This document shows, one piece after another, positions 8,213 through 54,771 of a stretch of DNA of 64,000 nt. The stretch covers positions 363,118 to 427,117 of the forward strand of contig JH720329.1 in NCBI GenBank assembly GCA_000231825.2, given 5' to 3'. The position numbers and the translations under genes were made by a program. The DNA comes from Tetrahymena elliotti 4EA (Eukaryota; Ciliophora; Oligohymenophorea; Hymenostomatida; Tetrahymenidae). Position 1 is the stretch's first letter. Each line of letters starts with the position of its first letter. Under the pieces are notes generated by a model that worked only from the letters and a program-made list of their open reading frames with translations, was not told the DNA's origin and ran no database searches.

Positions 8213-8360
8213 TAATAAAATCCACATGATAAAAAGTTGATCTAAAAAGTTAATTCCTTAATTATCTATTAAATAAATGAATATATTTAATTAAATCTCT
8301 ATTAAATAACTGATAAAAAAACATAAAAAATTTAAAGAGTTTTTCTGATAAGATAAATAA

Positions 8361-15995: not shown

Positions 15996-18900
15996 ATGTA
16001 ACAAGAATTTATTAATACCAAAAGTGATAAAAGCGACAGAGATTATTAAAGATATTCAATAAGTGATGATAGAAGTGAAAAAATTAAAAAGGGGCTATAG
16101 GGTGACTCTGATGTAAAAATCTCTTTTAATTTTGGTGATGATGAGTATGAAGATGAGAAAATCTAAACCTCCTAAATAAATAAATATACCCAAATTTAAA
16201 ATACTATTTTAAATGAGTTAGAGAAAACTTAAATAAATTAACTCAACAGCAACTTAAATGGTGAACAAGGATATTTAAGATTTTAAAAAAATGAGATAGG
16301 TAAAATAATTGTTATTGTAAATTTCTAATAAAATCAGTTAGTTCTACTTATTTTGAATATTATTATTTCAAATAATAAAGAAAAGACTTCAATGAGAACC
16401 AATATGAATTTAAGATTGAAAGATGATGATTTATAACTTAAGGAATCAAATCAAGGCTTCTTCTTAAATAAAAAGACTGTTATTAATACCAAAAATGATA
16501 ATTTAAAGTAGTATTTTAGCAAGAATAGTTAAATTTGTAAAAACTATAACATATCAGAAGATTAAAAACATCAATAATATATTTGTAATAAAAGTAGTAA
16601 AAGTATTTAAATAGCTATGAATAAAAACAAATAATCTAATTCAGCTTAGGCCAAAGTTTTACAGTTCATTAATAGAATAAAATTGATAAATAGGAATAGA
16701 AAACTTGAGAATATTTAAAGAAAACAAGTAGAAATAATTCGAGATAAATGCTACTATTTCGAAAAATAATTATTAAAAAATTCACTTTACAATTATTTCT
16801 AATAAAGCTTATATTAACTCTTTTAGCTCATCCCAATATTTATTCCAACAAACAAAACAATCATAATTTATGAAATATTTAGTATAATTTATTTCAATAT
16901 TTTCTTTTTCTTTCTTTCAGTTTTAGCTTTTTTTAACTAAACTGAACAGAACTCTACTTTGTTTATAATTTTTAGTTATATAACAATATTTATTATGATA
17001 ACAGATGTGATTTTAACTCTGAATATAGGAATTTTTCATAATGGAAAATTTATTTAAGAAAGGGATGTCATTGCTAAATAATATCTATTAAGCATGCATT
17101 TTCTCACTGATTTTTTGAGTCTTGTTATATTTTTAGCAAAGATAACTTCTGATCCAAAATAAATTACATTTAACCCTTAACATAATATTTGTAAATATTT
17201 ATTTACTGTGATCATACTCTCTAAGCTTTATAGCATAAAGAAAAAAGTAGAAAGAGTAGATTAAATTTTCATGCTAAGCTAAACTAAAAGGCAAATTTTC
17301 TTGCTACTTTGTTAATTTTTTTATCTGCTTTCAGTAGCTCATACATGTAAAACATATTTTTAAATCAATAGATATCTAAAATAACTTATATTAAGCATGT
17401 ATAGGATGGTACTTACAGGCATTCATTTTGGAGGAAGAAAAAAATTGGCTGTAAAATAAAAACATAGTTGAAAGCAGTTTTTATATAAAGTATATTTATT
17501 CTTTTTATTGGGCAATCAATATAATGACAACAAGTAAATTTCATATTGTGATAGATTTGAAAATAATTTTTTTCTTCTCAATTAAATAGTTGGGAGTGGT
17601 GATATAGTAGCTTAAAATGTTTATGAAGCTTTATACACCGCAATAGCATCAATCATATTTAGTTGTGTATTTGCTTTTTCTCTTTGGAATGTTTTTTAAG
17701 TTCTTAAAGAAATAGGAAATTCAAATAAGAGCCTTAAAAAATAAACTTAAGTTTTAGAAAAGTAAAATTATTTTTAAAATAGAGAGAATTGAATAATTTT
17801 TGTTTAGATATCTTAGGAGAAAAAATATAAACTCTTTGCTTAAGGCAAAAACTATGAATTAGCTTTAATATTTGGAAGAAGAAATTTGCAGAAAATAGTA
17901 ATAAGAAGAGGCATTAGTTCTCTCTCTTTTGCCTGCTAAACTTTAAGCACAAATAATGTATGAAGCAAATTCATAAAGAATTAAAAATTTTAAAATATTT
18001 AACTGCTTTTCTGATCAGTCTATCAATAAAATAGCTTTATCAATGAAAGAAATAATTGTGGCTCCAGAAGAATTTGTATTTGAAGAAGGAGATAGAGATG
18101 ATTCAATTTATTTAATAGTTCAAGGATAAATTGAAATTTTATTAAATACCAAATAATTAAACAACTATCCTATTAGGCTAAAATAATTATCAGAAAATTA
18201 AATTTTTGGTGAATTAGCATTTTTTTCTTAAATGCCTAGAAAAGCTTCAGCTAAAAGTATAAATCTGTCAACTTTATATTAAATCTAAAGAGAAGACTTC
18301 ATTGAAATTATTTAAGAAAATTAAAAAGACTTTGAAACTTTTAAAGTTATTTAGCATAATATATTATTTTAAAATAACCATTTAAATACTAAAAGTTTAT
18401 GCTATTGCTGTCATTCTAGCAATCATATCATACAAAAATGCCCTATTGTTAATTAACCATTAGACAAATAATTAATCAAATTGAAATATAATTTTGATTA
18501 ATTTTAAGAAAGAAAAACGTACAATAGAAAAAAGAAAAAGATTATCAAAGCATTGTAAAAAAATTTATTCATTGATAATAAGATTTTATTTAAAATTAAT
18601 TTCAATTAAAATTATTCTTTAAATAAATAAAAAGGAGTTTCATAACATAAAATTATAACATTCAAAGACAATTCAAAAGAGTGAAATCAGAGTATTTCCC
18701 ATAATTTCGTTAAGAATAAAGCAATTAAGAATTTTCAAATTTATAGATAGAAGAAATAAAGCAATAAGAACTTATTAAATAAAACATTGAATCATGCTTT
18801 ATTAATTTAAATGAACTAAATTATTCTGCACATAATTTAGAAAATGTTACACTAAGTAAAAGATAGATTTCACTAGATTAATAATTATCAAATTCTGGTA

Positions 18901-19933
18901 GAAATTAAGTTCATAATAAAAATAATGTGGTTCAAACTGATTTTAATCATAATAACAACAATAATAATTTAATTTATGAAATCAAAAAAACTGATAAAGA
19001 TTAAGATTTTCAAACATCATAAGATAACAAATAAATGAGTAGTTCTCTTGTAGACATAGGTAAGTGTTTTTATTAATATATTTAAAAATTTAATTATTAT
19101 TTTATTTTAAAGAAAGTAAAAATGATGCAATCTATTCAAATAGGAAAATTTCTATTGATAAAAAGAGAAAAAAATCAACTATTCTGAAGCATTATAATTT
19201 TATTGAAAATATTTCGTATGATAAGAATTCATCTAACAATTAATTTGAATAAGAATCAATTGATTTATCTGCTAGCATGATTTTAGAATCGATCCATTAA
19301 TAAGATTAAAAATATCGTAAACATTTACCAAGCTCTTCAAATCTATAAAATAGTCATGATGATAAAACAAATAAAATTAAGGCTTCAAAAACCCAAGAAA
19401 ATAAAATACTTAAACTTTTTAAAGACGAATTACAGGATGAATTAATAAATGAACTCTTTTCTTAAAACTAATTATCAGTAAGTGCTCATTTATCAAGTTG
19501 TAAATAAAGTAAAAACTCCCCTTTTAATAGAAGATAATTAATGTAATAAAAAAATTAAAATCATGATAGAGAATAAAATCCATAATTTGTTAAAACATAC
19601 TCTGTGCTAAACATAAGCAAATTATTTTCAGCCAACTTTGAAACAATGAAAAATTATGAGTATTATTTCCCTTAAAATAACTCAAATTTTGTAATTAAAG
19701 AATATAATTATTTGTAAAACATTAAGTAGAAGCCCTCATCTTCAAAAAGACTGATAAAAAACATAAACAGTCTCATCATAAAAAGAGCTAAATCTTTAAA
19801 ATAAGAACTAGTAGATCCAAAACAGCATTAAAAATTAAACATAACAAATTTATCCTATGGAGTATCTACTAAAAATTGCAGCAAATATCCAAAAGTATCT
19901 AATATAATTAATTGTGATAAATAATAAAAGTGA
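15996..19933 (+). CDS. channel A: six-TM channel with non-GYG pore, CNBD and CCHC zinc knuckle (1190 aa)
   Basis: Exons are 15996-16299, 16381-17346, 17396-17533, 17590-17761, 17808-18554, 18635-19059 and 19113-19933; they join to 1191 codons. S1-S6 lie at about residues 260-520 (S1 IIYFNIFFFFLSVLAFF, S2 IFIMITDVILTLNIG). The pore reads NIMTTIGSGDIV (I470-G-S-G-D), so the usual filter Tyr is Ser. The CNBD (about 590-690) has EEGDRDDSIYLIVQGQIEI and the phosphate cassette FGELAFFSQMPRKASAKS with the R-x-A-S motif. A zinc knuckle CYCCHSSNHIIQKC follows at 728-741. The tail contains FETMKNYEYYFP and LSYGVS. EAG/HCN/CNG relatives are cation channels gated by voltage and/or cyclic nucleotides. The closest neighbour in sequence is B. 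Conductance and ion selectivity are uncertain because of the altered filter. Confidence 0.9.
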
Positions 19934-20596: not shown

Positions 20597-23500
20597 ATGG
20601 ATATTTAAAATTTGGAAAATTCTGTTGAAAATAATAATAATTCTTAGCTATTAGCTGATCAAGATTTATAAAAAGAAAGCTTTTTAGATAAAACAAGGTA
20701 AAAAATGAATGCTTATGATAGAAAAGATCAAGGTGATAACTCCAGAATTATATTTAATGATGGCAGATTTTAAAATATAAATTAAGATATCACATAAAAA
20801 GATTAAAGCTTAAACCTTAGATTTAACCAAAAGAATAATCTTGAAGAATCTAACTTTTATTCCAACATACAAGACAATAGCTTATTATCTGAATTTGAAG
20901 AAAAAGGTATGAATTCCATTCAAAAGAGATAAATTGCTTATTACTTCTACTTTATTGTATGTAGTTCTATATTAAATTTAATTCAAATAATATGTAGGTA
21001 AAAGTAAGTAGCTAAAAACCTATGAAATTACAAAATAGACCTCATAAAACATCAACGAAGTTTAACGATATTCTTCATAAGGATAACAGTCTGCTTATAA
21101 GATTAATAAAAACAGTTTATACAAACAAAAAAACTTGAATTCATCAAAGAGTCTACATAGAAAATAAAAATAAGAATAATTAAAAAGTAAAAATGAAGTC
21201 CAACAATCAAAGATTTTGAAAATAAAGTTGTTAGTTTCTTAATTTATTTAAAAATTAAAATATTTAAAAAAGAATAGAAAATTAGATCATTATTCTTAAA
21301 AGAAAGTTAAAATTATTTTTGATAAATGCTGCGATTTTGAAAGTGAACAAATAAGTTAAATTAGAGGCACTTTTTACAATTTGCATTAAAGGATTAAACA
21401 GATAATCAATTAAATTCCTCTTTTTACTCCTACAAATAAGATTGCTATTATTTTTGATGCTTTTCTTGTAGTTTATTTTTACTTGTGGTTTTTTTGTTTA
21501 TCAATTGCAGCTTTCTTTGATTAAAATGAATTAAATTCTGATTTATTTGCTGTTTTTTCCATCTTAACAGTATCTATTATGGGATTAGATATTATTGTTA
21601 CTTTAAATATAGCTTTGATTTAAAAAGATAACATGGTCTATGACAGAATATTTATCTTTAAAAAGAATACTTTTAGTCTTTATTTCCTATCAGACATGTT
21701 AAGTATTGCCTCTTTATTTGTGCAAATTATAAATAATTCAAATGAAATAACATACAATCCAGACAATTCAATTACAAAGTATGCTTAAATAATATTAATC
21801 TTTTCTAAAATGTATGCGATTAACTAAAAAAGAAAAAGATTAAAAAATATTTTAATCCTTAGCTAGTCCTAAACACATTTTTTAGAGGTTTTTAGCTTAA
21901 TTTTTAACATAATCTAATTGGCTCATATCAGTAAAAAATGTAATTTAATTATCATTTATATTAAACATCTATTTTAAAATAGCATGCATTGGCTTTTACT
22001 CTCTTACGCTTATCTCTAAAAATGAAAGAAATTGGATTTAGAGCAAAAATATAGAAAATAGTGCTTATTATATTAAGTATATTTATTCTTTTTAGTGGGC
22101 AGTATTCACTTTAACAGCAAGTAATAATTATCATAAAAATCATCATTAAAATTAATCTCTATTTTAAAATTGAAAGACCTTCTAAAATTAATTAATTCAC
22201 TTTTAATTTAGTAGGAAATTAAGAAATTTCAGCAACGAATTCTTTAGAAATGATATATGTGTCATTCTCTGCAATCTTATTTTACTTTGTCTTTATTTTT
22301 AATATCAGTAAAATCAGTAGAGCTTTTAATGAAATATGTCAATAAAATTTTAATGAGCAAATTTAAATTATTTCAAGGTAAATTATATTTATTCAAAAAA
22401 TAATAAAATATTATTCGACATTAGTAAAATAATAAAATATTTTTTAATAGATTTTTAAATAGATAGAACTTAAGTACACAGCTCTAAGTAAGAGTTAAAT
22501 AATATTTAAATGCGTTATTAGAGTAAGAAGAAACATAATAGATTTCAAAAGTAAGATAAACACTTTCTCTACTAACTCCTCAACTTAGAGAAGAGATTAA
22601 TTTTGAAACTAATATTTAAAAAATTACAAAATTTGAAATATTTAATTGCTTTTGCTAAAAAACTCTAAATTAGCTTGCTTATTAGATGAAAGAAATTTAA
22701 TTTTCTCCAGGAGAATTAATTTTTATGGAAGGAAATTAGGATTAATCAATTTATTTAATTATTAGTGGGGAAATAGAAATATTTCTAAAAGGAGTATAAA
22801 ATGATTGTTAATAATCTTTTACGCTTAGTTCTTTATCTTCTAATCAAATTTTTGGTGAAATTGGTTTTTTTTCTTAGCAGCCAAGAACTGCTTCAGCTCG
22901 AAGTCTAAATTTTACAAACTTATGTAAAATTGAAAGAAAGGATTTTATGGAAATTATTTAGTAGAATTAAATGGATTTTTAGATATTCAAAGAAATAGAG
23001 CATAAGATTACTCTAAATAAGGACTATAAACAAATTCATGTTGAATGTTATGCTTGTAATTCTAATAATCATGTTATTAAAACATGTCCTATCCTAAACT
23101 GTAAAGTAGATGATAAGGTCGTCAAGCTTAAAACAAATTATTGTCATTTTTAACAGAGAAAGAAACAAAAATAAAGATTTTTATCAAAGCTATTGAAAGC
23201 TAGGTAAAATTAAACATTATTTTCTTTAAAAGTAAAAATAAATGAATAAATTGTTTAAAAATATAAATTACTTAATACTGTATTACCTCTGAAACTCAAT
23301 TCTTGATTAAGATTACCTTGATTATCAATCGAGGTTTCGCTTCAAATTCAATAAAATAACTAAAATACCCAATTAAATTTTAATCATTAGAATATTACAG
23401 TATATTATTTAAAAATAAAAATAAATGAGTATTTTATTAAAATGACTGAATATCTTATTTAAAAAGTAAATATAAATTAATATTTTATTAAAAAGAAATT

Positions 23501-24814
23501 TAATAGGTTTGAACAAAAAGTTACACAATGATTTGAAAAATAATTTAAATTGCTAAAGTTTTTTCAATTGTACAAGATTCGATAATAAATAAGCTTTTTC
23601 GATGAGAAAGCTAGAAGGTTTGAATTGCTAATAAGATAAAATAAATAATGAATAATTTTATTTTAATTAACCGAGAACTTAATCATAACATAATTTACAA
23701 GAAAATCAAATTAGATGCAAATAAAAATCTATTGAATAAAATTTGGCTAACCAGAGCAAGAACTAAATTAAAAGTGTTTCAAATAAAAATACAGTAATAC
23801 AAAGACACGACATCTATTTATCAAATGATGATGATGATAATTAAGAGAAAGAAAAAGACATCCTTTAAGATGATTTGAGTATGAGTTAATTGAATTCGAT
23901 TTTTGAAATAAGTAATTAATTAACATTTTTCTTTGTTTTTGATAAATGAAAAATTTAAATTATATTATAAATTAGGCTGTAAAAATGATAATTTTACTTC
24001 TAAAAACTCCTCTCATAATAGAAAAAAATAAATAAGTATTTAAAGAAACTATAATTATATAGAGAATGTTTAAACTGATCCATAAAAGTAATCGCTACCT
24101 TTCATAAATTGTCTGGATTAAGAATCTATTGATATATCTGCAAACTTAATTGCAGAATCAAGCTATACCCTTGATTAAAAGTACCATAAATAGCTATCTA
24201 GCTTGGGAAATATTTAGCTCTAACCAGAAGAGAGGAAAAATGTTAGCTGGAAATCGTAAGAAAATAAAATACTTAAATTTTGTAAAGATGGATAAATGAA
24301 TAACTTGAAAAAGGAATTAGAGAGCTAGAATTCTGTTAAAATCCTATCTTTAAATGACAAACAAGATAAAATTTCTGCTTCTAAAATAAAATCTTAAATA
24401 GTATTCTCTACTAAAAGGCATGGCACTGAGTAAAATATAAAAAGTTATGATAACAAATAGACATCTAATAAATAACCAGATCTTTTTTTAAATTAATTTG
24501 ATAAAATGAAGTTATTTAAATACTATTTCCCACTATATAATTACAACTTAATCATATAGAATTACAACTCTTTGTAAAATAATAATACTAATAATATATT
24601 TTTTTCAAGTAAAGTGGAAAAAAATACAAGCATTAAGATTATTTCAGATACTAATAAGAAAAGATGTTTTTCGACTAAATTTAAATTTGAATAAAATAAA
24701 TTTTAGATTGAATAAACTTCTAATACCACTAATATTTCTTATGGTATCTCTACTAGAGGATGCAATAAACATCCAAAGAAATACTCAAACGAGTTAGATG
24801 AGAAATTGTAATGA
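20597..24814 (+). CDS. channel B: six-TM channel with degenerate pore (IGNQE), CNBD and CCHC zinc knuckle (1184 aa)
   Basis: Exons are 20597-20906, 20998-21930, 21983-22120, 22212-22377, 22451-23203, 23496-23911 and 23976-24814 (1185 codons). The fold is the same as A: S1 near VVYFYLWFFCLSIAAFF, S2 near SIMGLDIIVTLNIA. The pore helix reads QWAVFTLTAIGNQEISAT: the filter is I461-G-N-Q-E, without GYG or GxG. S6 (YVSFSAILFYFVFIFNI) is intact. The CNBD has FGEIGFFSQQPRTASARS, with the canonical Arg and A-S. The zinc knuckle CYACNSNNHVIKTC is at 715-728. The tail keeps FDKMKLFKYYFP and ISYGIS. The intact frame across seven exons and the kept CNBD argue that it is expressed. It may be a non-conducting or modulatory subunit, or a channel with altered selectivity. 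The 292-nt intron 23204-23495 is long for this array. Confidence 0.88.
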
Positions 24815-25397: not shown

Positions 25398-28300
25398 ATG
25401 AGCAGCAGCTAAAGTATGTAGAATACTCTATCAGATAACATTGAGCTCCATAACAAATCTATGTAAGGAAAGATTTTTTGTTAAAGCTTTATAAATTGTT
25501 TAAGAGGGGATGAGGATTTTACAAATGTTTCTTACCCCTGCAATCATAACACTGATTTTAATGAAGGAAGATAAAAATCATAGGAAATATTTGAACCATA
25601 AAATGAGACTTTTGAATAGTTTACAAAAGTAAAATAATTCTTTCTTTCTATAATTGATAATATTATAAGCAACTTTTATAAGAAATAAATAAGTTAAGCA
25701 GAAATGTAGGAATAGTAGCACAATACATAAAATTGTTTACCTTCCATTTAAAAAATGTTGACATTTTAAGAATAAAATAATTCTAAAAAAGCTCCTAAAG
25801 TTTACCTATTTTAAGGTAGCAAATAAAAAACTTTAAAAAACTCTAGAAATTTATAGCATGATAAAGAAAAGCTCAAAGTAGAACTAAGCTTAATCATCAA
25901 AAAAAAGGAGTCTGTTAAATTTAATGAATAAAATAAGTCAGAATCTGTTCTTGATGTGAGCAATCTTAACATATCATAAATTAAGTCAGAGTAATCGCAA
26001 ATCAGACAAACTTAAAAGTCTTTTAGCAAGTAGAGTGAAACAAATTATGAAAGAGCTGCTGAAATCATTAAGAATATATTTAGTAAATCAATGAATAGAG
26101 TCTAGAGGATAAACAAACATGTAAAAACGTTTATTTAAGTTTTAAAAAACAGGAAAAAAAATAGATCAATTATAAATTTACAAGAAAACGAGTATAGATT
26201 AATAAATGACTAAGCATTCTGTCATTAAGCTAGAATGAGGGCAAATCAACCCAAAAAATATCTTCATAAATTATATTGCTTAGCTAAAATGAGAATGCCT
26301 ATTCCTCTATTTATGCCAACAAACACTTTCAGAGTTTACTGGGATATCTTTCAAACAATCTACATTTGCTTATTTATTTACATTTATTCTATTTTAATTT
26401 TCTTTGCNNNNNNNNNNNNNNNNNNNNNNNNNNNNNNNNNNNNNNNNNNNNNNNNNNNNNNNNNNNNNNNNNNNNNNNNNNNNNNNNNNNNNNNNNNNNN
26501 NNNNNNNNNNNNNNNNNNNNNNNNNNNNNNNNNNNNNNNNNNNNNNNNNNNNNNNNNNNNNNNNNNNNNNNNNNNNNNNNNNNNNNNNNNNNNNNNNNNN
26601 NNNNNNNNNNNNNNNNNNNNNNNNNNNNNNNNNNNNNNNNNNNNNNNNNNNNNNNNNNNNNNNNNNNNNNNNNNNNNGCAATAAATTTATTAGTGTTTTT
26701 TAAATTGAAGTGCGTTAATTAAAAGAAGAAGAGATTTAGTTATGCCTTTACATTAGGAGATAATTAAAAACATGTAATGAAATTATTTAACTAACTCCTT
26801 AGTGTTGTGTTTGTAGCTCATTTGGGTAAATTATTAATTGATCATTTTTAAATTTTATTTTTTAAAGCTTTTCTTCAATTATTAATTTTTAATTATCTCC
26901 CCACTTTTTTATTGTTTTTGTTACTTTCTCATTTTAATTTAGATAATAAATCTGAAATAGATCGTAAAATTTATTTTTTCTTCTCAAAAATAATATAGTG
27001 TCTTTAGCTTGGTTTACATTAGCTTAATAAGAAATTTAAAATGGCTACTCAGTAACATGGATTTAAAAATATAACATAAATGGATTACCATATATTTAAT
27101 AATATATTTATTCTATTTATTGGTCTGTTACTACCATGACTACAGGTATTTTACTTAATTAACTCTTCTAAAATGATAAAATTATTTTTTTAGTTGGGTA
27201 TGGAGATATCTCTGCTTGTAATTATGTAGAAGCGTTTTTTATAACACTTTCTATGATTTTATTTAGCTGCGTTTTTGCTTATTCAATCAATAATATTGGA
27301 TTTATATTGTAAGAAATTGAAAAATCTTCAAAAGAGCTAAATGACAGTATCATTATAATATAAAGGTAATTCATTCATTATTCAAATTTAATTTTTCAAA
27401 ACTAATCAAACTCACATTATAGCAATCCAAAATTTTAATGATAAATTTATCAAATAAAATTTACTTATTTTTATTATGAAAGATATTTGAATAGAAAAAA
27501 CGTTAACCCATCTTTATAGTGTAGAGTAAGGCATTATCTTAGTTTTTTAGCTCGAGAACAAAAGGACAGAAATTAAAGTGCTGAAAATTAAATTTTGTCA
27601 ATATTATCAAATAAATTAAGAAGCGAAATAGTTATTGAAATTAACTCAAGATTGCTGAAGAATAATTCAATTTTTAGTGCAAATTTTTCTTCTCAGACTC
27701 TGAAAAAATTGGTTTTTATTATGGAAGAAGTTGTGATATCTCCTAATGAAATCATTTTTGAGGAAGGCGATTATGATGACTAATCAATGTACTTTATAGA
27801 GAGTGGCTAAATAGAAATTTACTCATCTTCTTCCTCAAATCAAATTTTAGATAGCTTAAATCAATCATCAAATACTCATTCTTTAAAACTGTTATAAAAA
27901 GATAATATTTTTGGAGAGATTTCTTTTTTTTCTGGGTTATCTAGAAAGGCGAGTGCAAGAAGTATTAATTTATCCACACTGTATAAAATAAATAGAAACA
28001 GTTTTATAAGCCTTATTTAAGAAAATTAAGAGGATTTCGAGAGATTTAAAATGATGGAAGAATAAATCAAATTCTTGCAAGATAATTCAATTCTATATTT
28101 AGAATGTTACGCTTGTAAGAGAATCGGTCATACTGTCAAATATTGCCCTTCAACTCACTAAATTGTTGATCAGTAATTTACAATATTGAAAGAGACCTTT
28201 AGCTTGTATTAAGAAAGAAAAGGAAGAGTAAAAAGAAGGCTTAATTATAATAAATATAATGCAAGGTTTATTATTAATATTTTTTACATCATATTATTTA

Positions 28301-40100: not shown

Positions 40101-41842
40101 ATAATTAAATTTGTCAAATTCTAAAAGAAAATATAAGATACTTAAATACTTAAATTTAGATTCTTTTTAATACAGATGAAGATGTTTTTTTCAGCTCGCA
40201 CTCTTCTGAAGAAGATGGTTAATAGGGTGATTTTTTAACAACATGTAACTAAACTTCATATACTTCTTTAAAAGGAGATAGTTCTAATAAATCTTTGAAT
40301 GATAAATAAATGATAAAAAGTGAAAGAAGTTTTAATTCTATAACAAAAGATCAGTAAGCAGCTAATAATAGCTTGTAAATAATAAAATCTTAAATATAAA
40401 TTGGGAATTAATCTAGTAATATAAAAAACCAGTAAGGGAGTTTAAAAGATAATAATAATAATAAAATTATTGAAAACCTTGAAAATTTATTGGTCAGTGA
40501 AAAATAAAATAGCGATATTAATAACCTGATAAATACAAATATAAGAACTATTCGTGCAAATAAATATTCTAATTAGTTTGAAGAAGATCAATCTCATTAA
40601 GCTATGAATTAAAATGATTTATAAACCAAAGAAATCTAAGAGAAGCATGAATTAACTGAGGCTGATATTAAAGATAATGGTAATGGTTATCATAGCTAAC
40701 AACGCCTAGATAATTAGAGTTAAAACAAACTTTATAATTCCAAAGTCTAAGGTTTATTACTTTCAAGTTGTACCAATAAAGATTTATCACACAAAAACTA
40801 ATAAGAAATTAATGAAGAAAAATTGAAACCAAGATCAAATAGACTCACACTTAAATATAATTCAAATAATTAAGATGATTTTTATAGTAGTGAAAAAAAT
40901 GATGAAAGTGATGAAGATTTACTTAAGTTAAATTAAGGATCATCTACTGTTATTAAAAAATCCAATTCAAAAATAAAATTTTAGCAGTCATAGAATGAAT
41001 TTAGACCTTCTTTAGATTATTCATCTTATAGTGGTATATATGGAGCTTGTATAGCTCAAAGTTTGGCATTAATTAATGCTTAAAGCTAAATAAATAAATT
41101 TGAAAATGCAGTGAATAAATTAGATGAAAAGATTTAAAATATTTAGTATGAAAGGTCATTTTAAAATATAGAGAGGAATAGTATTTTATGCAATTATAAG
41201 AGAAACACTTCCTCAATTTTATAAAGCTAGTCTAAAAAGTAAATAGAAACCTATGATTCAATAATTAGTTAGCATTTTAAAAAAGATTAAAATCTAATTA
41301 AAAATTCATTTGAAAAAACTCATACTAAAAGGCTATCAAACAAAAATAAAAAAAGTATCTAAGTGATGAAGTAAAATTCATAGGTTAATATATTATCTGA
41401 ATCACAATATATCCTATAAAAATTTTGCAAGATGATCAGCAATCAAGCAGAAGATTATTTTAAATTTAATCGTGAATAATCTGATATTCATAGATTTGAT
41501 TTTGCAAATAACTTTATGATAGATCATTTTGATTTAATGAAGAACTTTAATAAATTCTTTCCTCACAACAACTTTATCAATTTGATTAATTAAAAATTAA
41601 CTAGTTTGACTAAAGTTAAAAAGAAAAATAATCCAACTAAATCTACTAAATAAAAGAGAATAAATATTTTCTTCAATCCATAGTCATCTAGAAAATCAAT
41701 ATTCTGCCATTTAATACTACAGAAATAATTATTTTCTGAAGTAGATTTTGACAAATACAAGCCTACTTTCTTATCATATGGTGTTTAATAAAAGACAGAT
41801 ACCATTTTTCCTAAATTTCATTCTGATTATCCTTAAAAGTGA
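37114..41842 (+). CDS. channel E: six-TM GYG channel with CNBD and CCHC zinc knuckle (1414 aa)
   Basis: Exons are 37114-37341, 37397-38552, 38727-38873, 38922-39093, 39219-40001 and 40084-41842 (1415 codons). The first intron is 55 nt, not a multiple of three, so it must be removed; this establishes the intron position used for C, D and G. The N-terminal box is HNKSLQGKIFCESFLDCLKG. The S1-S6 region is nearly identical to D, with VGYGDISASN at the pore. The CNBD cassette is FGEISFFSGLSRKASARS. The zinc knuckle CYACKRIGHTVKNC starts at residue 776. The tail is Q/N/S-rich with FDLMKNFNKFFPHNN and LSYGV before DTIFPKFHS. Its role is as for D. Exons of 147, 172 and 783 nt are the same length as in C, D, F and G. 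Confidence 0.92.
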
Positions 41843-43582: not shown

Positions 43583-46500
43583 ATGTCTTAAAATTAAATA
43601 TTTTAAACAAATCTCATAAAAACAGAGTCAGTATTAGAAAACGAAGAATTTTAAAATAAATCTTTACAGGGAAATATTTTTTGTTAAAGCAGAACTCATT
43701 TCTTGAAAGGAGATGAAGATTAAATTCATTTTTCTGTATCTTCAAATGCAAAAGATGCAAAAGAAAAAATATTGGTTTCATAAGAGCAATTCTAAATAAA
43801 TGACTAAAATTTAGATGCATGTGATGATGTAAAAATATTTTTAAATATATATTCATTAACTTTTTTTCATGCAAGAATTAACTAAGCTATAAAGAATCAT
43901 AGTAAAGTTCTATAGATGTGGATCAATTATAAAAAATTTCATGCTAAAGAGAAAGTGCTGGTAGAATTAGCTAAGTAGAATTAAGCTAGATTAGTATAAC
44001 TAAATAAAGTATAAACAATATTTAGATAGACAAAACTTAAGAAAACTTTTAAGTAGAGCTCAGCATAATAGAAAAATCTAGAACCTCTTCTAATAGATAA
44101 TAAGGTGAATCAAAGTACTTTTAAGAGAAGGATGTCAATAAAACAAATCAATAACCATTAATATCAGACATAATTTAATTTAGAGGTGCTTAGCAAAATA
44201 AGAGGAGACAAAGTATTGAAAACTATGAAAAAGCAAGCTAGATTATTAATAAAGCATTAGGCAAGTCTTTGAATAGAGTTCAAAGAATTAATAAGCTTGT
44301 TAAAAATTTTATTTACATGCTAAAAATCAGAAAAAATAATAGATCAGTTATGAATTTATAAGAAAATGAATACAAACTTATTAATGATTTAGCTTATTTT
44401 TTTCATCCTAAACCTAATAATTTTATAGTAAATTATTATTTTTATAAATTAATTAATCTTTCTAAAATTGGCATTTAAGTGCCTCAAGTTTTTATGCCAA
44501 CAAACACTTTCAGAGTATACTGGGATATCTTACAAACTATCTACACCTATTTATTTATATTTATTTACTCTATTTTAATTTTCTTTGCAATGAAGGAATA
44601 GGATTCTTTTTTTGTAAAGTAATACTATAAATTTACATTCATCGTTTTTTTGGTAGATGTTTTGATAACTCTTAATACCGCTTTCTTTAAATAAGATGTT
44701 GTTATAACTAATCGGAAAAAAATAGCTTGGAAATATGTGACTTCCAGCATTTTTATAACTGATGCTATTTGTTTGATAACTATGGGATCTAAGCTGATCT
44801 CAATGAACTCTAATCTAGTTTACAACCCTGATCATAGTTTGTAAAGTATTGCTATTAATTCTTTAGTTTTTTTGAAATTAAAATGCCTCAGTTAAAAGAA
44901 AAAGCGATTTAGCTAAGCATTTATATTAAATGATAATTAAAAACATATTATGAAACTGCTTAATCAACTTTTCAGTGTAATCTTTGTGGCTCATTTTGGT
45001 AATTAATTTTTAATAATTTTAATTTCTTCAGTAAAATGTGGCTTGAGGACAAAGACTTTTGTTTTATATCTTTCTTTCTTTTTATCTCTTTGTTTAAACA
45101 ACTGGCTACTTTATTATTGAAATTTATCATATTATATTACTTAATTTCAATATAAAAACAGTAAGTTTAGCATGGAATATTTTGGGAAAGTATGAAAATT
45201 AAAATGGGTATTCATCTTCTTGGATTAAAAAATATAACTTTGATGAATTGACCTACTTATAGCTATACATTTATTGCATGTATTGGTCTGTTACTACTAT
45301 GACAACAGGTATCTATTTTCAGAATTATAGTTATTTTTATTTATGCTTTATTATTTTTATTAGTTGGTTACGGAGATATATCTGCAAGTAATTATGTAGA
45401 AGCGCTATTTATATCTATATCTATGATCTTATTTAGTTGCGTATTTGCTTATTCAATTAATAATATTGGATTTATTCTTTAGGAAATAGAAAAATCTTCA
45501 AAAGAACTTAATGATAGTATCATTGTTATATAAAGGTAAATAATAAATATAAAATTATTTCAAAAAATAATTCATGGTGATTTAACCCAATTTCATTTTT
45601 TTAACAATATTGATTTTGAAAAGATTAGTTCTTTAGTTTTCTTTTAAAAGATATTTATTGAAAAAATTTATATTGAATTTATTTAATCTCTAAAATAGTG
45701 ATCATACATTTAGTTAAAGTATTTAAGATTCATTATTAATTGAATTCATGGAAAGAAATTAATATTTTCTGATATTTTTAATTTCAGAATAAATTTAAAA
45801 AATATTCTTAATTATCAATTAAATTTAAATAATAGGTATTTGAAAAGAAAGAACGTGAATTCTTCTTTAAAAAGCAGAGTTAGGCATTATCTTTGCTTTT
45901 TAGCTAAAGAATAAAAAGATAGAGATACATAATCTGAATAACAAATTTTATAAATTTTATCAAACAAACTGAGAAGTGAAATAGTTATAGAAGTAAACTC
46001 AAGAATACTTAAAAATAATTCTATTTTTACTGCTAATTTCTCTTCTCAAACCTTAAGAAAATTAATATTCTTAATGGAAGAGGTTATAGTTTCACCTAAT
46101 GAAATTATATTTGAACAAGGAGATAGTGAAGACTAATCAATATATTTTATAGAGAGTGGCCAAATAGAAATTTATCAATCAGTTCCTTAAAGTTTAGTCT
46201 CAACCAACTAAAATGTAAAACCAAATACTCATTCAATAAAAATAATATCAAAGGATAGCATTTTTGGTGAGTTATCTTTCTTTTCTGGAGTGGCTAGAAA
46301 TTCTTATGCAAGAAGCTTGAATTTATCAACCCTTTACAAGATAGATAGGAATAAGTTTATTAGTTTGGTGAAAGAAAATCAGGAAGATTTTGAGAGATTT
46401 AAAATGATGTAAGAGTAAATTAAAGTCTTGTAAGATATTTCATTCTTATTTTTAGAGTGCTTTATCTGTAAAAATTAAGGTCATATAGCAAAAGATTGTC

Positions 46501-48390
46501 CATTAGTTCATTAAAAATTTGATTCATAATTTATCACACTAAAGCATAACTTTAGCTTATTTTAAGAGAGAAATATGAAAATCTAAAGAAAATAGTTTAA
46601 ACTTAAATTTAATTCTAGGTAAATTATATTGAGCTTTTACATCTTAAAAATTCAGCTTATTGAAATATTCTTTATTTTATTATCAAATAGAATGAACATT
46701 AATAAGAATATTAACATTTGCAATCTTTTGAAACAAAACATCCGATATTTTAATTCTAAAACAGATATTTTATTTTAGTCTGATTATGAAATAGACAGCG
46801 AATAATAGGAAACTGATAATTTGTATAAGAAAGAATAAAAAACATCAAGCAATTGCTCTTCATAATCATCTTAGAAAGAAGGAAGTTCTTCAAAATCAAT
46901 AAGTGAGAAATTCATCTTTAAAAGTGATAGAAGTATAAATTCGGTGCAAAAAGAATAATAGGCTAGCAATAATTTAAAGATAGTTAAATCGTAAATCTTT
47001 ATAGGTAAACAACCTAACTTGACCAGAAACCAAAGAGATTTAGATAACTAAGAAAATTTACTTCATTCTGAGAAACAAAATAGTAAAAAATAAACATAAT
47101 TTTTTTATTAATTTATTTAAAAATAAAATTTTTTTAGAAACAGAGGAGAACATTTATATAAATATAAATTAAAGTGAATGTTATTAAAAAGAGTAACTTT
47201 TAGATAGATAAGAAAACCAACTTGAGGTCTAAGAAGATAATACTTAAAATAATGATTTATCTGACATTTAAAATAACACTAATTAGGGTTAGTATTCAAG
47301 AACTTAAAATACGTCAAAGCTCTCTAATTCAAATATAAAAGACTCCTCTTCTCATATTAGTGTGTAAGAATAAAATGAGGAAAAATAAAAAAATTATCAG
47401 AAAAAACCAACTATTAAATTGAATAATAAAAACTAAGAAGACTATATCTCTTGCAATTCAAATGAAGATGATAATATAAATCTAAATCATAGTTTTGTGT
47501 CAAGTAAAACTTTTAAAAACTCAAAAACAGCTAAAAGCTTTAAAAATAAAGAATTTGAAAAACCTCAATTCGAAAAAATATTGAGTAAAGAAATTTTCAA
47601 TTCTTATATTGCTTAAAGTTTTGCATTGATACATACATAAAACTAATTAAATAAATTTGAGAATTCTATGAGTAAACTAGAATCACAAATATAATCTATT
47701 TCTTCTCAAAAGGTTAATTTAAATTAAGAAAGAAACATGTAATAGTATATTAAATCAAAGAACCCTTCCAGAATGTTTTCTACTCTTTCAAGGAAGTAGA
47801 ATGGTAGCCAAGAATTGAGGTTAAGCGATATATTAAAATATGATTTTGATTAAAATTCTAAGGGTGAAGATTCATATAAATTTTAGAAAGAATAAAAGTA
47901 AACTCATAAAAGCATAGATGTTTATGATTCAAACTCATAAAATTAAATAGATTCTTCAAATTCTCTCAAGATGCTTCAAAAAATTTGTAAAATACTCTCT
48001 TAGAAAGGCACTAATATCTTCAATTTTGCAGGGTAATAACAAGATGAAGAAAAAATAGTAGATAATTTAATAAGTGATCATTTTGATATGATTTAAAGCT
48101 ATAAAAAATTTTTCCCTCATAATAATTTTTAAAATGTCATTGAATAGACTAATAATTTTAGTTTGTTTAAACGCAAAAAAACTAGTAACTCCACAAAGAG
48201 TATTAAAAGTAGAAGAAAAAATAACATATTTATTAAACAAAATTCGATAAGGAAGTCGCTTTTTTTCAACCAAGTCTAACAAATCTAAAATTATTCATAA
48301 ACTGAATACAAGAAATTTAGACCTTCGTTTTTGTCTTATGGAGTATCATAAAAAAATGATACAAATTTCCCTAAATTTTATGTATTTTGA
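43583..48390 (+). CDS. channel F: six-TM GYG channel with altered CNBD cassette and consensus CCHC zinc knuckle (1371 aa)
   Basis: Exons are 43583-43828, 43876-44998, 45162-45308, 45364-45535, 45836-46618, 46691-47082 and 47138-48390 (1372 codons). The first intron is 47 nt. The start MSQNQIFQTNL leads to the N-terminal box NKSLQGNIFCQSRTHFLKGD. S1 is VYWDILQTIYTYLFIFIYS; the pore is TTMTTVGYGDISASN (V506). The CNBD has EQGDSEDQSIYFIESGQIEI but its cassette reads FGELSFFSGVARNSYARS, with N-S-Y where R-x-A-S is usual. The zinc knuckle CFICKNQGHIAKDC begins at 771 and fits the CX2CX3GHX4C consensus exactly. The tail carries FDMIQSYKKFFPHNN and LSYGVS. An extra intron in the tail (47083-47137), shared with G, separates this pair from C-D-E. 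Likely K+ channel; ligand binding may be weakened or changed. Confidence 0.92.
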
Positions 48391-49772
48391 TTTATTTTAT
48401 ATTTTGTTTTATTCTACATTTTGCTTTATATTAAAAATAAAAATTTGTGGAATAAAAATATTTTAATGCATTTTACTAATATAAAAAAGCAGGGTATTAG
48501 TTTTATTTGTGAAGAAATACTTTGTATTAAAAAGATAATTTAATTAACAAAAATCTACCTTATGACCTGAGATTTTCAAGAATTATTTATAAATACAGTA
48601 AAGAAAAACAATTACAAAAAATAATATAAATAATAAATTATAAGAAAAACTTTATTAATATTAATTAATTCTTTGGTTTTCTTTTGATTTAAGTTTCATT
48701 AATCAGAAAAAACTTATTGACGGACCTTTTACTTACAGTAGAAATTCTAAATCTAGATATTAATTGCAAAAAGATTAGATCATAATAGGGTTTACTATTA
48801 TTTAATTCAATAAAATTAACTCCTCTTCTAACAATTTGTTAATTTTTCCATCCTTCTCAAATAAATTATTAACTTCCTCTGAAATCAAATTAGTGAATAC
48901 AATTAAATTTGATTATAATTGAGGAAAATAAAACTGATTAAAAATTTATATTTATTTTTATCAGTTCTCATGTAGTAAATGAATTTAGGGTTTATATTAA
49001 TATCTTCAGATAATTTTTTTTCAATTTTTAAATGACTTAATAGATTTTTTTTTTCACAATATTCCAAGAGTCAAAAAGCAATTGACAAAAAATATTAAAA
49101 TTTAAATACTGTAATTAAATTAAAACTTTCAAGTCACTGATCAATGACCTATATCATTCAATAAAAAAATATTTTTTAGTCAATAATTTAAAATCTTCTT
49201 ATTTTAGCTGTTTAATCTTTGCAATACATAAAATGAGATTAATTTTTTTAGGAGTTCAATTATTACAATGCAAAATTTATGATAATACTTGATTTGGTAA
49301 ATTTATTAAATTAAATTTCAAATTAGCTAAATATTTTTAACAATTTTCTAAAATTAAATTTTTATTATAATTTGGTTAATTTCTAGAGAAAAAATAGAAG
49401 AAACTAAGATTAGTTAACAAAAGTAAATTTCTTAATAATAAAAAGAAAGGTAGAAGTAAATGTTTAATTTATAATCAATTAGTCAAAAAATTAGAGACAA
49501 GAAGAAGTAGATTATTAAGAATAAACATTTAAGTTTATAACATTTAGTACTAATATTATAGTTCATTTGTTTCTTATTATTTAAAGAGTATTAAAATGGA
49601 AGCAATAGTAAGGTTTTTAAAATACCTTTATTTTTTAAGAGAAAAATTAGCAATATTAGTTTTTTTTGATAAATAGAAAATAATAAAAGAAAAAAAAACA
49701 AAAAATACTCCAAATTAAAAATAAGATTAGATTATTGTAATTTAAAATAAGACCATATAAACAATTCTTGAA
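48391..49772. other. intergenic F-G, no feature seen
   Basis: About 1.4 kb of A/T-rich spacer. I see no gene, RNA or long repeat in it. Confidence 0.55.
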
Positions 49773-52700
49773 ATGGATATTAGAAGAATTGAAACAGTTA
49801 TAGGAAGCGAAGAATTTTAAGATAAATCTTTGTAGGGATAAATTTTTTATTTAGGGAGGACTCATTCTTTGAAAGGAGATCAAGACTAAATTCATTTTCC
49901 TGTTGTTACAAAAACAAGTAAGGCAAAGGAGAATTAAAATGCTTCATAAAAGCATTTAGAAATAAATGAATAGAATTCCTTTCAGCATGATGAAAGTGTA
50001 AGTTATGAATAAATTAATGTTAAGATAAATATTTTTTAGAATTAATTAGGAGAAAAAGAATCAGAGCAAAGTTCAGTTAATGGCAATATTAACAATTTAT
50101 AACCAAAAAATTAAATCCTATTTGAAAATAAATGCTAAAATATGCATAGGATCAGTTTAGTAGATATAAGCTTGATGAATGAAAGCAAATAAAGTACAGG
50201 TAACATTTAAATGGAAAAAAGTGAAGAAAATTTCAAAGTAGAACTTAGTATGATAGAAAAATGTACAAAATCTCCAATTAAGTTATAAAACTCCAAGCGT
50301 TCATCAGATCCTGAAATAAGCAAGCTTCATCAATTGAATACAAAATCCAAAATAACTCCACATAGAAACATTTAGTAAAATATGAGGAGATAAAGCATAG
50401 AGAGCTTAGAAAAAGCAATACCGATTATTAACAAAATCCATAACAAAAATATGAATAGACCTTAAAGAATAAATTCGCTTGTTAAAAAATTTATTTGCAT
50501 GCTAAAAATAAGAAAAAATAATAGATAGATTAGTCACTCTTTATAAGAAAACTAATATAAAATCATTAATGATTATGCTTTTTTTATTAATTCTACTTCT
50601 AAAAATTTCATAGTGAACAATTATTTTTATAAGTTGATAAATCTTGCAATGAGTAATACTAAGGTGCTACCGTATGTTTTTATGCCTACTAACACTTTCA
50701 GAGTTTACTGGGATATTTTATAAACAATCTACACTTATTTATTTATCTATATTTATTCCATATTACTTTTTTTTGCCATGTAAGAATAAGACTCTATTTT
50801 AATAAATTAATATTATAAATTTAGTTTCATCTTATTTATGATAGACATATTAGTAACATTTAATACTGCCTTCTTTAAATAAGATGTTGTGATAACTAAT
50901 AGAAAATAAATTGCATGGAAATATATGACTTCTAGTATTTTCATAACAGATGCTATATCTCTAATAACGATGGGGTCTAAATTAATACTAGCTAACTCTA
51001 ATCTAGTTTACAACCCTGATCATAGCGTATAAAGCATTGCTATTAATTCTTTAGTTTTTTTAAAATTAAAATGCCTCAGTTAAAAGAAAAAGCGATTTAG
51101 CTAAGTGTTTATTTTAAAAGATAATCAAAAACATATTATGAAATTGCTTAATCAACTTTTCATTGTTTTCTTTATAGCCCATTTTGGTAATTAATTTAAT
51201 TAAACGTTTTTTTAAATTTTATTGATTCGATAAATAAATTGATAAATTCTAACAATCAAATAATAACTATTTAACATTAGTCAGTTTAGCATGGAACATA
51301 TTAGGAAAGTATGAAATTTATCATGGATATGAAATTTCTTGGATTAAAAAATACAACTTTGATGAGTTAACTTACTTATAGCTATATGTCTATTGTATGT
51401 ATTGGTCATTTACTACCATGACAACAGGTATTTTTACCTTTAAATATTTTATTGTTTTTTAGACTTTAAATTTTTTAAGTTGGATATGGAGATATAACTG
51501 CAAGTAATTATGTAGAAGCACTTTTTATATCAATATCTATGATCTTATTTAGTTGCGTATTTGCTTATTCAATAAATAGTATAGGATTCATACTTTAAGA
51601 AATTGAAAAGTCTTCAAAAGAGCTTAATGATAGTATCATAGTTATACAAAGGTAAATAAATATTCATCTAAGTCTAAAATATCATTCTCTTTTACTATTT
51701 TTTAAATTTAACTTTTATAATTATCAACATCTAATCTAAAATTAAAGAAAATAATTTTTTTTGAAATATTTCATTAAAAATCTATTTACTAGATAATAAA
51801 AAAATAGATGAATCTAAAATCAAATTAAAAAAAATTTACTTTTATTTTAAATAATCATAAATACTTTAAAGCTTTCTTATTCGAAAGAAATAAATTAATT
51901 TACTTTATTATAATTTTTCTTTTTACTATTATCAATGATTAGCTAACTTTAAACGTAGAATAATTTATTTTAAGCGCAATTGACTTTCAAAGATAGATAA
52001 ATTTTAATTCATACAAATTATCTATCTATCTATCTTTAAACTAATATCAATGAAATATACCTACTTTAATTACATTTAAACACTAAATTACTTGAATTTA
52101 CTAATATTTTTTCATAGAATATATGTATGTAGCCGAAAAGGCAGTACCCTAGGGTATTATACATATATATATATATATATATAAACTATTTTTGAAAGTA
52201 GTACAGATGTTAGCTATTTAATATTATTAAAGTTTTTAGTTTTAAGTAATTTATTTTTGAAATTAACTAGGTATTTGAATAGAAAAAATGTGAATTCTTC
52301 TTTATAAAGTAGAGTTAGACACTATCTTAGCTTTTTAGCTAAGGAATAAAAAGATAGAGATCAAGAATCTGAAAAATAAATTTTACAAATCCTATCAAAA
52401 AAGTTGAGAAATGAAATAGTTATTGAGATAAATTCTAGAGTACTTAAAAATTTTTCTATTTTTAGTAGAAATTTCTCTTCTCAAACCTTGAGAAAATTAG
52501 TTTTTTTAATGGAAGAAGTGGTGGTTTCACCTAATGAAATAGTATTTGAACAAGGAGAAATTCAAGACTAATCTATATATTTTGTAGAAAGTGGTCGAAT
52601 AGAAATTTATTAATCCGGCCATGAAAGTTAAGTTTCTCATAACTAAAATACTAAACCAAAGACTCATTCAATTAAAATCATTTAAAGGGAAAGTATCTTT

Positions 52701-54771
52701 GGTGAAATATCTTTCTTTTCTGGAATGGCTAGAAATTCTTGTGCAAGAAGTCTGAATCTATCAACTCTGTACAAGATAGATAGAAATAAATTTATCTGTT
52801 TGATAAAAGAAAATTAAGAAGATTTTGAGATATTTAAAATGATCGAAGAGTAACTAAGAGTTTTATAAGATAATTCATTTTTGTTTTTAGAATGCTTTGT
52901 GTGTAAAAACAAAGGACATATTGCAAAAGATTGTCCAACAGTTCATTAAAAATTTGATTCTTAATTCTTAATACTAAAGCATAATTTTAGTTTATTTTAA
53001 GAAAGAAATATTAAAATCTAAAGAAATTTGTATAAATACAAATGTAGTGCAAGGTAATTTATAAATTTTTCATTTTTAAAAATTAGATTTTATTAAATTT
53101 TTATTTTTTATTTAAATAGAATGAACATTAGTAAAAATAAAAACATCTGCAATGCTTTAAAATCAAATATTAGATATTTTAATTCTAAAACAGAAATACA
53201 ATTTAAGACGGACTATGAAATATAAAGCTAAGAATTTGATACTGATTATTTTTCAAGTTAAGAAAAATATGCATCAAGTGGTTATTCTTCATAATCTTCT
53301 GAAAAAGAAGAGGATTCTTCAAGATCAATAAATGATAAATTTATCTTTAAGAGTGATAGAAGTATCAGAGAATTATAGGCCAATAATAATAATTTAAGGG
53401 TTGTAAAATCTTAAATATATATTGGAAAACCTTCTAGTTTGTTGAGAAATTAAAGAGATAGCATAAAACCAAATTAAATTCTTGAAAGCCAAGAAAATTT
53501 ACTTCAATCTGAAAAATAAAATAGTAAAAAAATATAAAAATGAAATTCTTAATTATTAAAAATATTTTTCATATTAAATAGATGAGCCTTTGAGCATGAA
53601 TTTAAATCAAAGTGGGTTTTATTAAAAAGATAACCTCCACATATCAGAAAATTAATTAGAATTCAATAATCATAGTGATGAATTAATTGATAATGATAAC
53701 AACAAAATGAGTCAGGCCTAGTTTTAAACAACTTAAAATGAATCAAAAGCTCCTAATTCAAATACAATAGGTAACTCTCATATTAGCCTGTAAGAAATAA
53801 ACGAAGAAAAATAAAAAAATATCTCTAAATAACAAACAGTAAAATTTAATAATTTAAACTAAGATGATTGCAATTGTAGTAACTCAAATAGAGATGATAA
53901 TTCAAGTTAAAAATATGTATCTTATAAAACTTTTAAAAGCTCAAAAACAGCTAAAAGCCTGAAAACGAAAGAATTTGAAAAACCTTAATTAGAAAAAATA
54001 TTGAGTAAGGAGATTATGAGTGCTTATATAGCTTAGAGTTTGGCATTACTAAACACATAAAATTAATTAAATAAATTTGAGAATTCTATGAGTAAATTAG
54101 AAGATAAAGTGTAATCTATTTCTTCTTAAAAGTTAAATTTAAGTTTGGAAAGAAATATGATAAAAAATAAAAACTCCTCTACAATGTTTTCTACAATTTC
54201 TAAGAGGCAGGAAAGTAGTCAAGAATAAAGGTTAAGTGATTTAGTAAAATAAGATTTTGATTCAAATGACGATTCAATTAAATTTTAGAGATAAACCAAT
54301 AAGAATCTAGGCTTTTAATAATAAAATTAACTGGAATAATCAAACTCCTTAAAAATGCTTTAAAAAGTTTGTAAAATGCTATCTTCAAAAGGAGCAGATA
54401 TTTACAATTTGTTTAGTCACTTGGAAAATGATGAGGATAATTAAGATAATTTAATATTTGATAATTTTGATGCTCTATATAACTTTAAAAAATTTCTCCC
54501 TCATAATAATTTCTGTAATATTATCAAAACATCTAATTATTTTGCTTAATTTAGACACAAAAAAAGCTCAGCTTCTATTAAGAGTACAAGAAGTAGAAGG
54601 AAAAATAATTTATTTATTAAACAAAGCTCAAAAAGAAAATCACTTTTTTGTAATCAAGTTATGTAAATTTAAATTCATTAATAAACTGATTATTTAAAAT
54701 TTAAACCTTCCTTTTTGTCATATGGAGTATCTTAAAAGAAAGATACTTTCCCTAAATTTTATCTTTTTTGA
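49773..54771 (+). CDS. channel G: six-TM GYG channel with altered CNBD cassette and consensus CCHC zinc knuckle (1355 aa)
   Basis: Exons are 49773-49997, 50040-51186, 51281-51427, 51480-51651, 52271-53053, 53120-53523 and 53582-54771 (1356 codons). The N-terminal box is DKSLQGQIFYLGRTHSLKGD. The pore is TTMTTVGYGDITASN (V507). The CNBD has EQGEIQDQSIYFVESGRIEI and the cassette FGEISFFSGMARNSCARS, again lacking R-x-A-S. The zinc knuckle CFVCKNKGHIAKDC starts at 772. The tail contains FDALYNFKKFLPHNN and LSYGVS. The fourth intron (51652-52270, 619 nt) is the longest in the array and holds simple repeats. The first intron is taken as 42 nt, a multiple of three, by analogy with E and F and might be coding. 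Closest relative is F. Confidence 0.9.
51989..52186. repeat. simple repeats and inverted repeat inside intron 4 of channel G
   Basis: AAAGATAGATA (about 51989) is the reverse complement of TATCTATCTTT (about 52026), the end of a (CTAT)n run. Further on is a (TA)n tract near 52160-52182 preceded by the unusually G+C-containing AGCCGAAAAGGCAGTACCCT. All lie within the intron between the S6 and C-linker exons. Confidence 0.6.

Follow-up and report, generated by a model that had tools for sequence, protein, structure and literature searches.

What is a zinc knuckle doing behind the cyclic-nucleotide-binding domain (CNBD) of an ion channel? The question is raised by a 64,000-nucleotide stretch of Tetrahymena elliotti DNA (the window), in which a gene finder written for this analysis and run on the + strand only placed seven CNBD-channel genes in tandem within positions 14000-55300, each with a CX2CX4HX4C motif downstream of the domain. 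Literature searches gave no description of a channel-borne knuckle in the titles and abstract openings among the matches listed. In the species-specific genes of Tetrahymena the CNBD ranks in the top seven of all domains, and the phrase “ion channel” occurs 0 times in the accessible part of that report (PMC6564038).

Seven tandem channel genes and their knuckles

Judged by sequence, the window genes belong with the 6-TM channels that make up the CNBD superfamily (Table 1). The core of gene E, the sole one of the seven scanned over the pore, matches PF00520 (47.6 bits) and PF07885 (36.8 bits); the other genes align to gene D in spliced alignment, gene C in part. The model of gene C is incomplete because of its run of N, and its alignment to gene D begins only in the later part of the core and does not cover the whole transmembrane part. 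The selectivity filter reads GYGD in C to G; in spliced models that have an intron at that place, gene A reads GSGD and gene B reads GNQE. PF00027 scores above its cut-off in all seven CNBD exons, and Arg150 of the phosphate-binding cassette is invariant across them.

The motif itself was confirmed, as quoted in the preliminary description, when all six frames of the 64 kb were scanned using the ciliate code: CX2CX4HX4C occurs in these seven places only. A chance origin is ruled out by this result, with seven six-frame matches, all in one place. CNBD and knuckle share one uninterrupted exon in every gene (from spliced alignments against gene D and the gene models derived from them), and the proline directly after the last cysteine is invariant in the alignment of the seven. 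The knuckle does lie behind the CNBD, as had been described; the distance of 30-40 residues did not hold, since in 7/7 the first cysteine stands 26 residues past the point where the Pfam CNBD match ends. The domain search that had been suggested gave a divided answer: PF00027 was found in all seven and PF00098 (cut-off 20.8) only in D, F and G, with E just below, C at 14.9 bits, B at 13.5 bits and A without a match.

Table 1. Positions in the window of the seven channel genes, their knuckles and the tail behind the knuckle of gene E.
Feature	Positions	Strand	Knuckle	Exon	Details
Gene A	15996..19933	+			six exons in model; pore filter GSGD in model
Gene B	20597..24814	+			seven exons; pore filter GNQE in model
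Gene C	25398..30034	+			26408-26677 reads N
Gene D	31407..35978	+			four exons in model
Gene E	37114..41842	+			six exons; PF00520, PF07885, PF00027 on core
Gene F	43583..48390	+			six exons in model
Gene G	49596..54771	+			six exons in model
Knuckle of A	18400..18441	+	CYCCHSSNHIIQKC	17820-18554
Knuckle of B	23046..23087	+	CYACNSNNHVIKTC	22463-23203
Knuckle of C	28105..28146	+	CYACKRIGHTVKYC	27495-28265
Knuckle of D	34032..34073	+	CYACKRMGHIVKNC	33422-35978	PF00098 23.8 bits
Knuckle of E	39841..39882	+	CYACKRIGHTVKNC	39231-40001	PF00098 20.6 bits, just below cut-off
Knuckle of F	46458..46499	+	CFICKNQGHIAKDC	45848-47082	PF00098 24.1 bits
Knuckle of G	52893..52934	+	CFVCKNKGHIAKDC	52283-53053	PF00098 25.0 bits
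Conserved tail behind knuckle of E	39883..39990	+			C-P-x-x-H, then predicted helix with Arg241 and Arg247 (exon numbering)

Reach and conservation of the ligands

Seven is the right count for the window and a large undercount as a family size. Elsewhere in the T. elliotti genome, C-C-H-C stands at the aligned columns in 73 of 75 further CNBD frame matches, and the two exceptions are exon or intron edges. Query bias was countered, for this genome only, by fetching sequence downstream of 12 matches that end before the knuckle: a C-C-H-C site followed in 12/12 (canonical in 8, split by an inferred intron in 1 and with altered loops in 3). About 93 T. elliotti genes were examined, out of at least 153 matches. 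Protein searches extended the sample to other species, with C-C-H-C at the aligned columns in 114/133 proteins found, among them 4/4 from Paramecium and 2/2 from Ichthyophthirius, which rules out a trait of Tetrahymena only. The preliminary description had made its case depend on conservation in other ciliates, and Tetrahymena, Ichthyophthirius and Paramecium all retain the ligands; its selected C-C-H-C site on genuine channels has been borne out. The site's family-wide reach, its fixed spacing and its persistence without the nucleotide-binding arginine had gone unnoticed there.

Taken together, 194 of 203 rows have C-C-H-C after removal of 12 rows that we chose as non-ciliate or unrelated (P0080, P0103, P0120, P0124, P0126-P0130 and P0132-P0134), or 194 of 215 without removal; seven of the removed rows (P0080, P0103, P0120, P0126, P0130, P0132, P0133) are listed with neither organism nor name. 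Three further proteins (P0131, P0135, P0136) gave no match to the profile, and in seven family proteins (P0016, P0069, P0072, P0073, P0075, P0079, P0113) the ligands are not intact. In a tree of 87 rows that we picked, all knuckle rows fall on one side of a branch with support 95/94. Given that the query regions of the three protein searches and of the own-genome search contained the knuckle, relatives lacking it may be under-sampled.

The distance from the FGE motif to the first cysteine is 65 residues in 186/194 knuckle rows, and the spacing CX2CX4HX4C is found in 191/194. Ligand spacing is altered or interrupted in 3/73 T. elliotti rows (L069, L070, L074); loop length differs in L069, L074, L082, L088 and L089, and the four ligands stay. 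Recent gene conversion as the source of this invariance is ruled out by two observations: ligand codons are synonymously mixed across 75 rows (TGT/TGC 39/36, 47/28 and 42/33 for the cysteines; CAT/CAC 58/17 for the histidine), and the examined matches reach down to 25% identity to the query. The zero entropy of the ligands in residue counts arises by construction, because rows were chosen to have C-C-H-C. The cassette position holds arginine in 173/193 knuckle rows of the wider family, and neither arginine nor lysine in 17. By these sequence counts the knuckle ligands are conserved more strictly than the nucleotide-binding site, suggesting that metal holds this part of the gating machinery together.

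Position of the knuckle and known channel systems

The structure predicted for the gene E exon places the C-helix at residues 178-194, the knuckle at 204-217 and a further helix at 226-253, with pLDDT of 78 and 71 for the knuckle block; the knuckle-bearing element thus sits directly downstream of the predicted C-helix. Fold searches with the CNBD exon and with a full-length relative matched CNG, HCN, SthK and plant K+ channels, in a comparison that barely tested the parts beyond residue 210. The core of gene E has Ion_trans, Ion_trans_2 and cNMP_binding in common with the superfamily at large (CNG, HCN, SthK, plant AKT/SKOR/GORK and KCNH); what differs is the knuckle, for among the 60 PDB matches listed for the exon profile only 7w5z_C, which is a Tetrahymena member of the family, matched past position 199, where the knuckle lies.

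Other channels carry something else in the same place. In HCN channels, helices D/E come after the CNBD and grip the C-helix, which makes cAMP affinity about 30-fold higher; in CNGB1 calmodulin binds the region after the C-helix (PMC10825183). HCN helices D/E and CNGB1 helix D resemble the knuckle in following the C-helix directly, but they have no metal ligands, whereas the ciliate element is a C-C-H-C turn and then a helix. In CNG channels the knuckle's position is taken by post-CNBD helices and a coiled coil. The zf-CCHC family (PF00098), known from retroviral nucleocapsid and CNBP, has the spacing CX2CX4HX4C in common with the ciliate knuckle, and P0054 joins D, F and G above its Pfam cut-off; scans of three Paramecium proteins did not list PF00098. 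Unlike zf-CCHC, the ciliate knuckle is a single copy on a channel, has a conserved P-x-x-H tail, and does not keep the aromatic and glycine in its far members. The Kv T1 domain provides a cytosolic structural zinc site in a tetrameric K+ channel, with ligands that lie between subunits and N-terminally. The putative ciliate zinc site would resemble it in being structural and in a cytosolic domain of such a channel, and would differ in having all four ligands within 14 residues behind the CNBD.

Possible roles of the knuckle

The best reading of these sequences is, we suggest, a zinc-stapled module rather than an RNA binder. Zn2+ held by C-C-H-C would close a small turn whose distance to the nucleotide pocket is fixed; this turn could lock the end of the C-helix (the lid and gating helix) to the conserved helix that follows, and the module would then act as a staple on the gating ring. 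In position it corresponds to the D/E helices of HCN channels, which clamp the C-helix and so determine the affinity for cAMP (PMC10825183). Tuning nucleotide affinity alone fits poorly as the role, given that the ligands persist in channels without the arginine. We give about even odds to a structural zinc site that is old, is shared by the ciliate CNBD channels as a family and fixes the end of the C-helix. Two findings were counted against it: in the near clade (rows with at least 40% CNBD identity to E, including window genes C to G) the knuckle is still of the canonical nucleic-acid type, which goes beyond what a staple alone would require, and the seven family proteins mentioned above lack intact ligands.

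The knuckle would have no importance if splicing removed it from the mature protein in most transcripts, as T. thermophila gene models P0016, P0069, P0073 and P0075, which splice into or over it, could imply. The letters of P0069 there fit a knuckle in another frame, however, and such matches occur elsewhere once in 165,833 residues, so that the P0069 model looks mis-spliced; L039, by eye the T. elliotti counterpart of P0075, has an open frame including the knuckle. Moreover, ligand codons change synonymously while the ligands are invariant, which indicates that the segment is translated and under selection, and splicing-out is hardly credible. A less far-fetched reading has the knuckle bind RNA or single-stranded DNA close to the membrane, if only in the near clade. 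Nucleic-acid-binding knuckles use an aromatic at position 2 and a glycine at position 8 as a binding platform, and often come in two or more copies. All seven window genes have the aromatic, and C to G the glycine; near rows retain the aromatic in 115/117 and the glycine in 91/117, and D, F and G pass the PF00098 cut-off. Against this, A and B have asparagine at position 8, each channel has one knuckle only, and far rows keep the ligands but the aromatic in just 41/77 and the glycine in 11/77. The preliminary description had offered RNA binding; as a general role it is unsupported, because aromatic and glycine are not kept outside the near clade, and as a family-wide role it is rejected since they are kept mainly there. 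For the near clade it is very doubtful.

Two other roles are somewhat less improbable, although still unlikely. The knuckle could stand outside gating and offer a surface through which subunits assemble, partner proteins make contact or the channel is targeted (e.g., to cilia). A conserved predicted helix comes after it, and CNG structures resolved past the CNBD, including the CLZ coiled coil, head the Foldseek rows; yet little follows from a Foldseek match to a long helix, and the fixed distance from the CNBD is more what one expects of a piece of that fold than of a free docking site. This we judge unlikely, and much the same is to be said of a regulatory metal or redox switch, in which zinc release or cysteine oxidation would free the C-helix and change gating with or without cyclic nucleotide. 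The ligands outlast the cassette arginine, as expected if metal and not nucleotide is the regulator, but canonical C-C-H-C knuckles bind zinc tightly. A bolder and slightly less probable proposal from the same sequences is that the ciliate gating ring is metal- or redox-operated, with C-C-H-C as the family's conserved sensor in place of cyclic nucleotide; nucleotide sensing would have been lost in several lineages, including the Paramecium members found, and the zinc switch retained.

With at least 153 matches in one ciliate genome, and metal ligands stricter than the nucleotide contact, the family would be a natural experiment in how gating rings are held or switched. The CNBD-knuckle pair offers a simple way to recognise from sequence a class of channels whose module is only partly visible to Pfam, and the knuckle ligands form a directly testable set of mutations in the genetically tractable Tetrahymena.

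One deposited entry carries a sequence that matches such a channel. The sequence of 7w5z chain C, from what we take to be a T. thermophila complex IV entry, matches the Tetrahymena knuckle channel P0033 over 1-1471, and the aligned part that was compared is identical. The entry is not among the best 50 rows of each of three fold searches, suggesting that the model leaves the CNBD out, and it yielded no evidence of zinc. As far as the accessible parts of two papers go, 7w5z was used as the initial model Tt-CIV2 (PMC10227065), and another structure assigns COX3 to Ymf67/Ymf68 (PMC10060162).

Occurrence of the knuckle in the window and in the family

The preliminary description placed a zinc knuckle (CX2CX4HX4C) behind the cyclic-nucleotide-binding domain (CNBD) of seven tandem channel genes, A to G, and a six-frame scan of the window bears this out, returning exactly seven matches, all at the claimed sites. 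In each gene the knuckle follows the CNBD within one exon, its first cysteine 26 residues past the end of the Pfam CNBD match, and invariant columns of the seven-exon alignment include C204, C207, H212, C217 and P218 (gene E exon numbering). Pfam finds cNMP_binding in all seven CNBD exons (with Ion_trans, Ion_trans_2 and cNMP_binding in the gene E core), and zf-CCHC (PF00098) exceeds threshold for the knuckles of D, F and G only, not for those of A, B, C and E. The ciliate code fits the window, giving 141 stop-to-stop frames of at least 150 aa versus 1 under the standard code. Seven genes were recovered by a codon-and-splice-site gene finder written for this analysis and run on the + strand, and spliced alignment of A, B, C, E, F and G to gene D yields cores with common intron positions, C being aligned only behind its N stretch. 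The best named relatives of the gene E CNBD region are proteins of T. malaccensis, T. thermophila and T. utriculariae (up to 76% identity). Six T. malaccensis family proteins (P0007, P0125, P0004, P0002, P0001 and P0087) carry consecutive numbers from ABPG73_007097 to 007104, which suggests an equivalent tandem cluster there.

Features with coordinates (window positions unless a contig is named)
Feature	Position	Strand	Remark
Window in the genome assembly	G000:C37:363118-427117		assembly of 90 Mb, 134 contigs
Seven channel genes	14000-55300	+	
Gene A pore filter	17396-17761	+	GSGD
Gene B pore filter	21983-22377	+	GNQE
Gene C N run	26408-26677		270 bases, in the transmembrane part; flanking reading frames differ
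C-P-x-x-H tail (example)	39883-39894	+	behind the knuckle; without counterpart in plain zf-CCHC
Long ciliate-code frames	97-15000 and 55241-63827	both	outside the cluster
CCHC array (L001)	G000:C120, ~19588-20088		elsewhere in the same genome

On the sequence evidence, the knuckle is a family-wide trait. Three protein searches gave 136 proteins, 133 of them matched by a profile built for this analysis, and C-C-H-C stands at the aligned columns in 114 of these 133, as it does in 73 of 75 further ORF matches of the T. elliotti genome. The two exceptions are L051_p_573, whose frame stops before the knuckle (nearby L051_p_1233 has one), and L066, where an intron apparently cuts inside it. As a counter-test, 12 own-genome matches that had ended before or near the knuckle were fetched: a canonical knuckle lies downstream in 8, and reading by eye finds one across an apparent intron in L081, CX2CX3HX4C in L082 and CX2CX9HX4C in L088 and L089. 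With L069 and L074, the last three loci retain all four ligands around a shorter or longer Cys-His loop. No clear knuckle-less family member was found among the approximately 93 own-genome genes inspected, of at least 153 matches.

Conservation, losses and age

Among the 194 rows selected for having C-C-H-C, ligand spacing is canonical in 191, and in 186 the first cysteine lies 65 residues from the F of FGE; synonymous codons are mixed at the ligand positions (75 rows, including the seven window genes). The phosphate-cassette arginine and glutamate are kept in 173 and 152 of 193 knuckle rows, a comparison that favours the ligands by construction because the rows were chosen for them. Without such selection, 194 of 203 ciliate-type rows show a complete ligand set; of the nine that do not, five have no residues aligned at these positions.

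Seven family proteins lack intact ligands: P0016, P0069, P0072, P0073, P0075, P0079 and P0113. P0079 (first Cys to Tyr) and P0072 (last Cys to Tyr) look like real substitutions. P0069 looks mis-framed: its letters past the skip fit a knuckle in another frame, a match found once in the 165,833 residues of the other proteins. In the T. thermophila models P0016, P0073 and P0075 the frame is left at the knuckle or ahead of it. These three and P0069, also from T. thermophila, splice into or over the knuckle, through either mis-annotation or true alternative splicing. Two other models, P0114 (Paramecium sonneborni, additionally bearing PF03133) and P0115 (T. thermophila, named "SNF2 family"), are read as fused or misnamed, though both match as channels.

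Loss of the ligands in other ciliates would have spoken against the preliminary description; they are present in all four Paramecium proteins found (P0110, CNICKSYSHLDIQC; P0112, CNYCKMADHLNIDC; P0114; P0117) and in both from Ichthyophthirius (P0054, P0081). A tree was built from 87 selected CNBD sequences with the knuckle columns left out. A branch with 95/94 support sets apart 78 of its rows, every knuckle row among them; P0079 and L066, the latter with its apparent intron, are the two in this group without C-C-H-C. Of the nine rows on the other side, none of which has the motif, four are unnamed, one bears a protist label and the rest come from an oomycete and land plants; the positions of several outer rows are uncertain on account of their long branches. 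Taken at face value, this would mean a single origin predating the Tetrahymena/Paramecium split.

Structure and possible role of the knuckle

AlphaFold2 (40-row alignment, mean pLDDT 78.9) predicts for the gene E exon C-linker helices, CNBD barrel, C-helix (178-194), knuckle (blocks at pLDDT 78 and 71) and a further helix (226-253); a full-length Ichthyophthirius relative is predicted with the identical order (knuckle blocks 77 and 67). The fold matches listed are CNG, HCN, SthK and plant K+ channels, the top Foldseek rows being CNG structures resolved past the CNBD. The deposited sequence of PDB 7w5z chain C matches P0033, a full-length T. thermophila knuckle channel; the 7w5z CNBD is absent among the matches listed in three fold comparisons, and the sequence assignment of this chain is possibly wrong.

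HCN helices D/E, downstream of the CNBD, grip the C-helix end and raise cAMP affinity ~30-fold, and calmodulin binds helix D of CNGB1 (PMC10825183). The ciliate knuckle and the next helix occupy the place of HCN D/E at a locked distance, and it is for this reason that we propose a staple role: zinc held by the knuckle would fasten the C-helix and the gating ring, with the module packing against the C-helix. Neither Arg nor Lys stands at the cassette Arg position in 17 knuckle rows, including all four from Paramecium, and survival of the knuckle in such channels argues for a role in holding or assembling the ring beyond affinity tuning. RNA binding could be a near-clade property: an aromatic at knuckle position 2 and Gly at position 8 occur in 115 and 91 of the 117 rows with at least 40% CNBD identity to gene E, and in 41 and 11 of the 77 remaining rows. 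Conservation continues past the knuckle at Pro218 (164/194), His221 (168/194), Arg241 (186/191) and Arg247 (171/186); His221, the tail histidine, is possibly a fifth ligand or a structural mark.

Literature searches found no description of a channel knuckle among the matches listed. Precomputed domain lists place PF00098 beside PF00027 in 13 of 80 proteins of the gene E protein search, so anyone consulting them can see the two domains together. The array at L001 comprises seven canonical CCHC knuckles and is CNBP-like.

In the spliced models the pore filters of genes A and B depart from GYGD, with an intron at that place, a possible sign of subunits with a regulatory role or non-K+ selectivity. 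GNGE stands at this site in P0001 and P0113 of T. malaccensis; T. thermophila P0074 has GYGD, though it groups with genes A and B in the tree.
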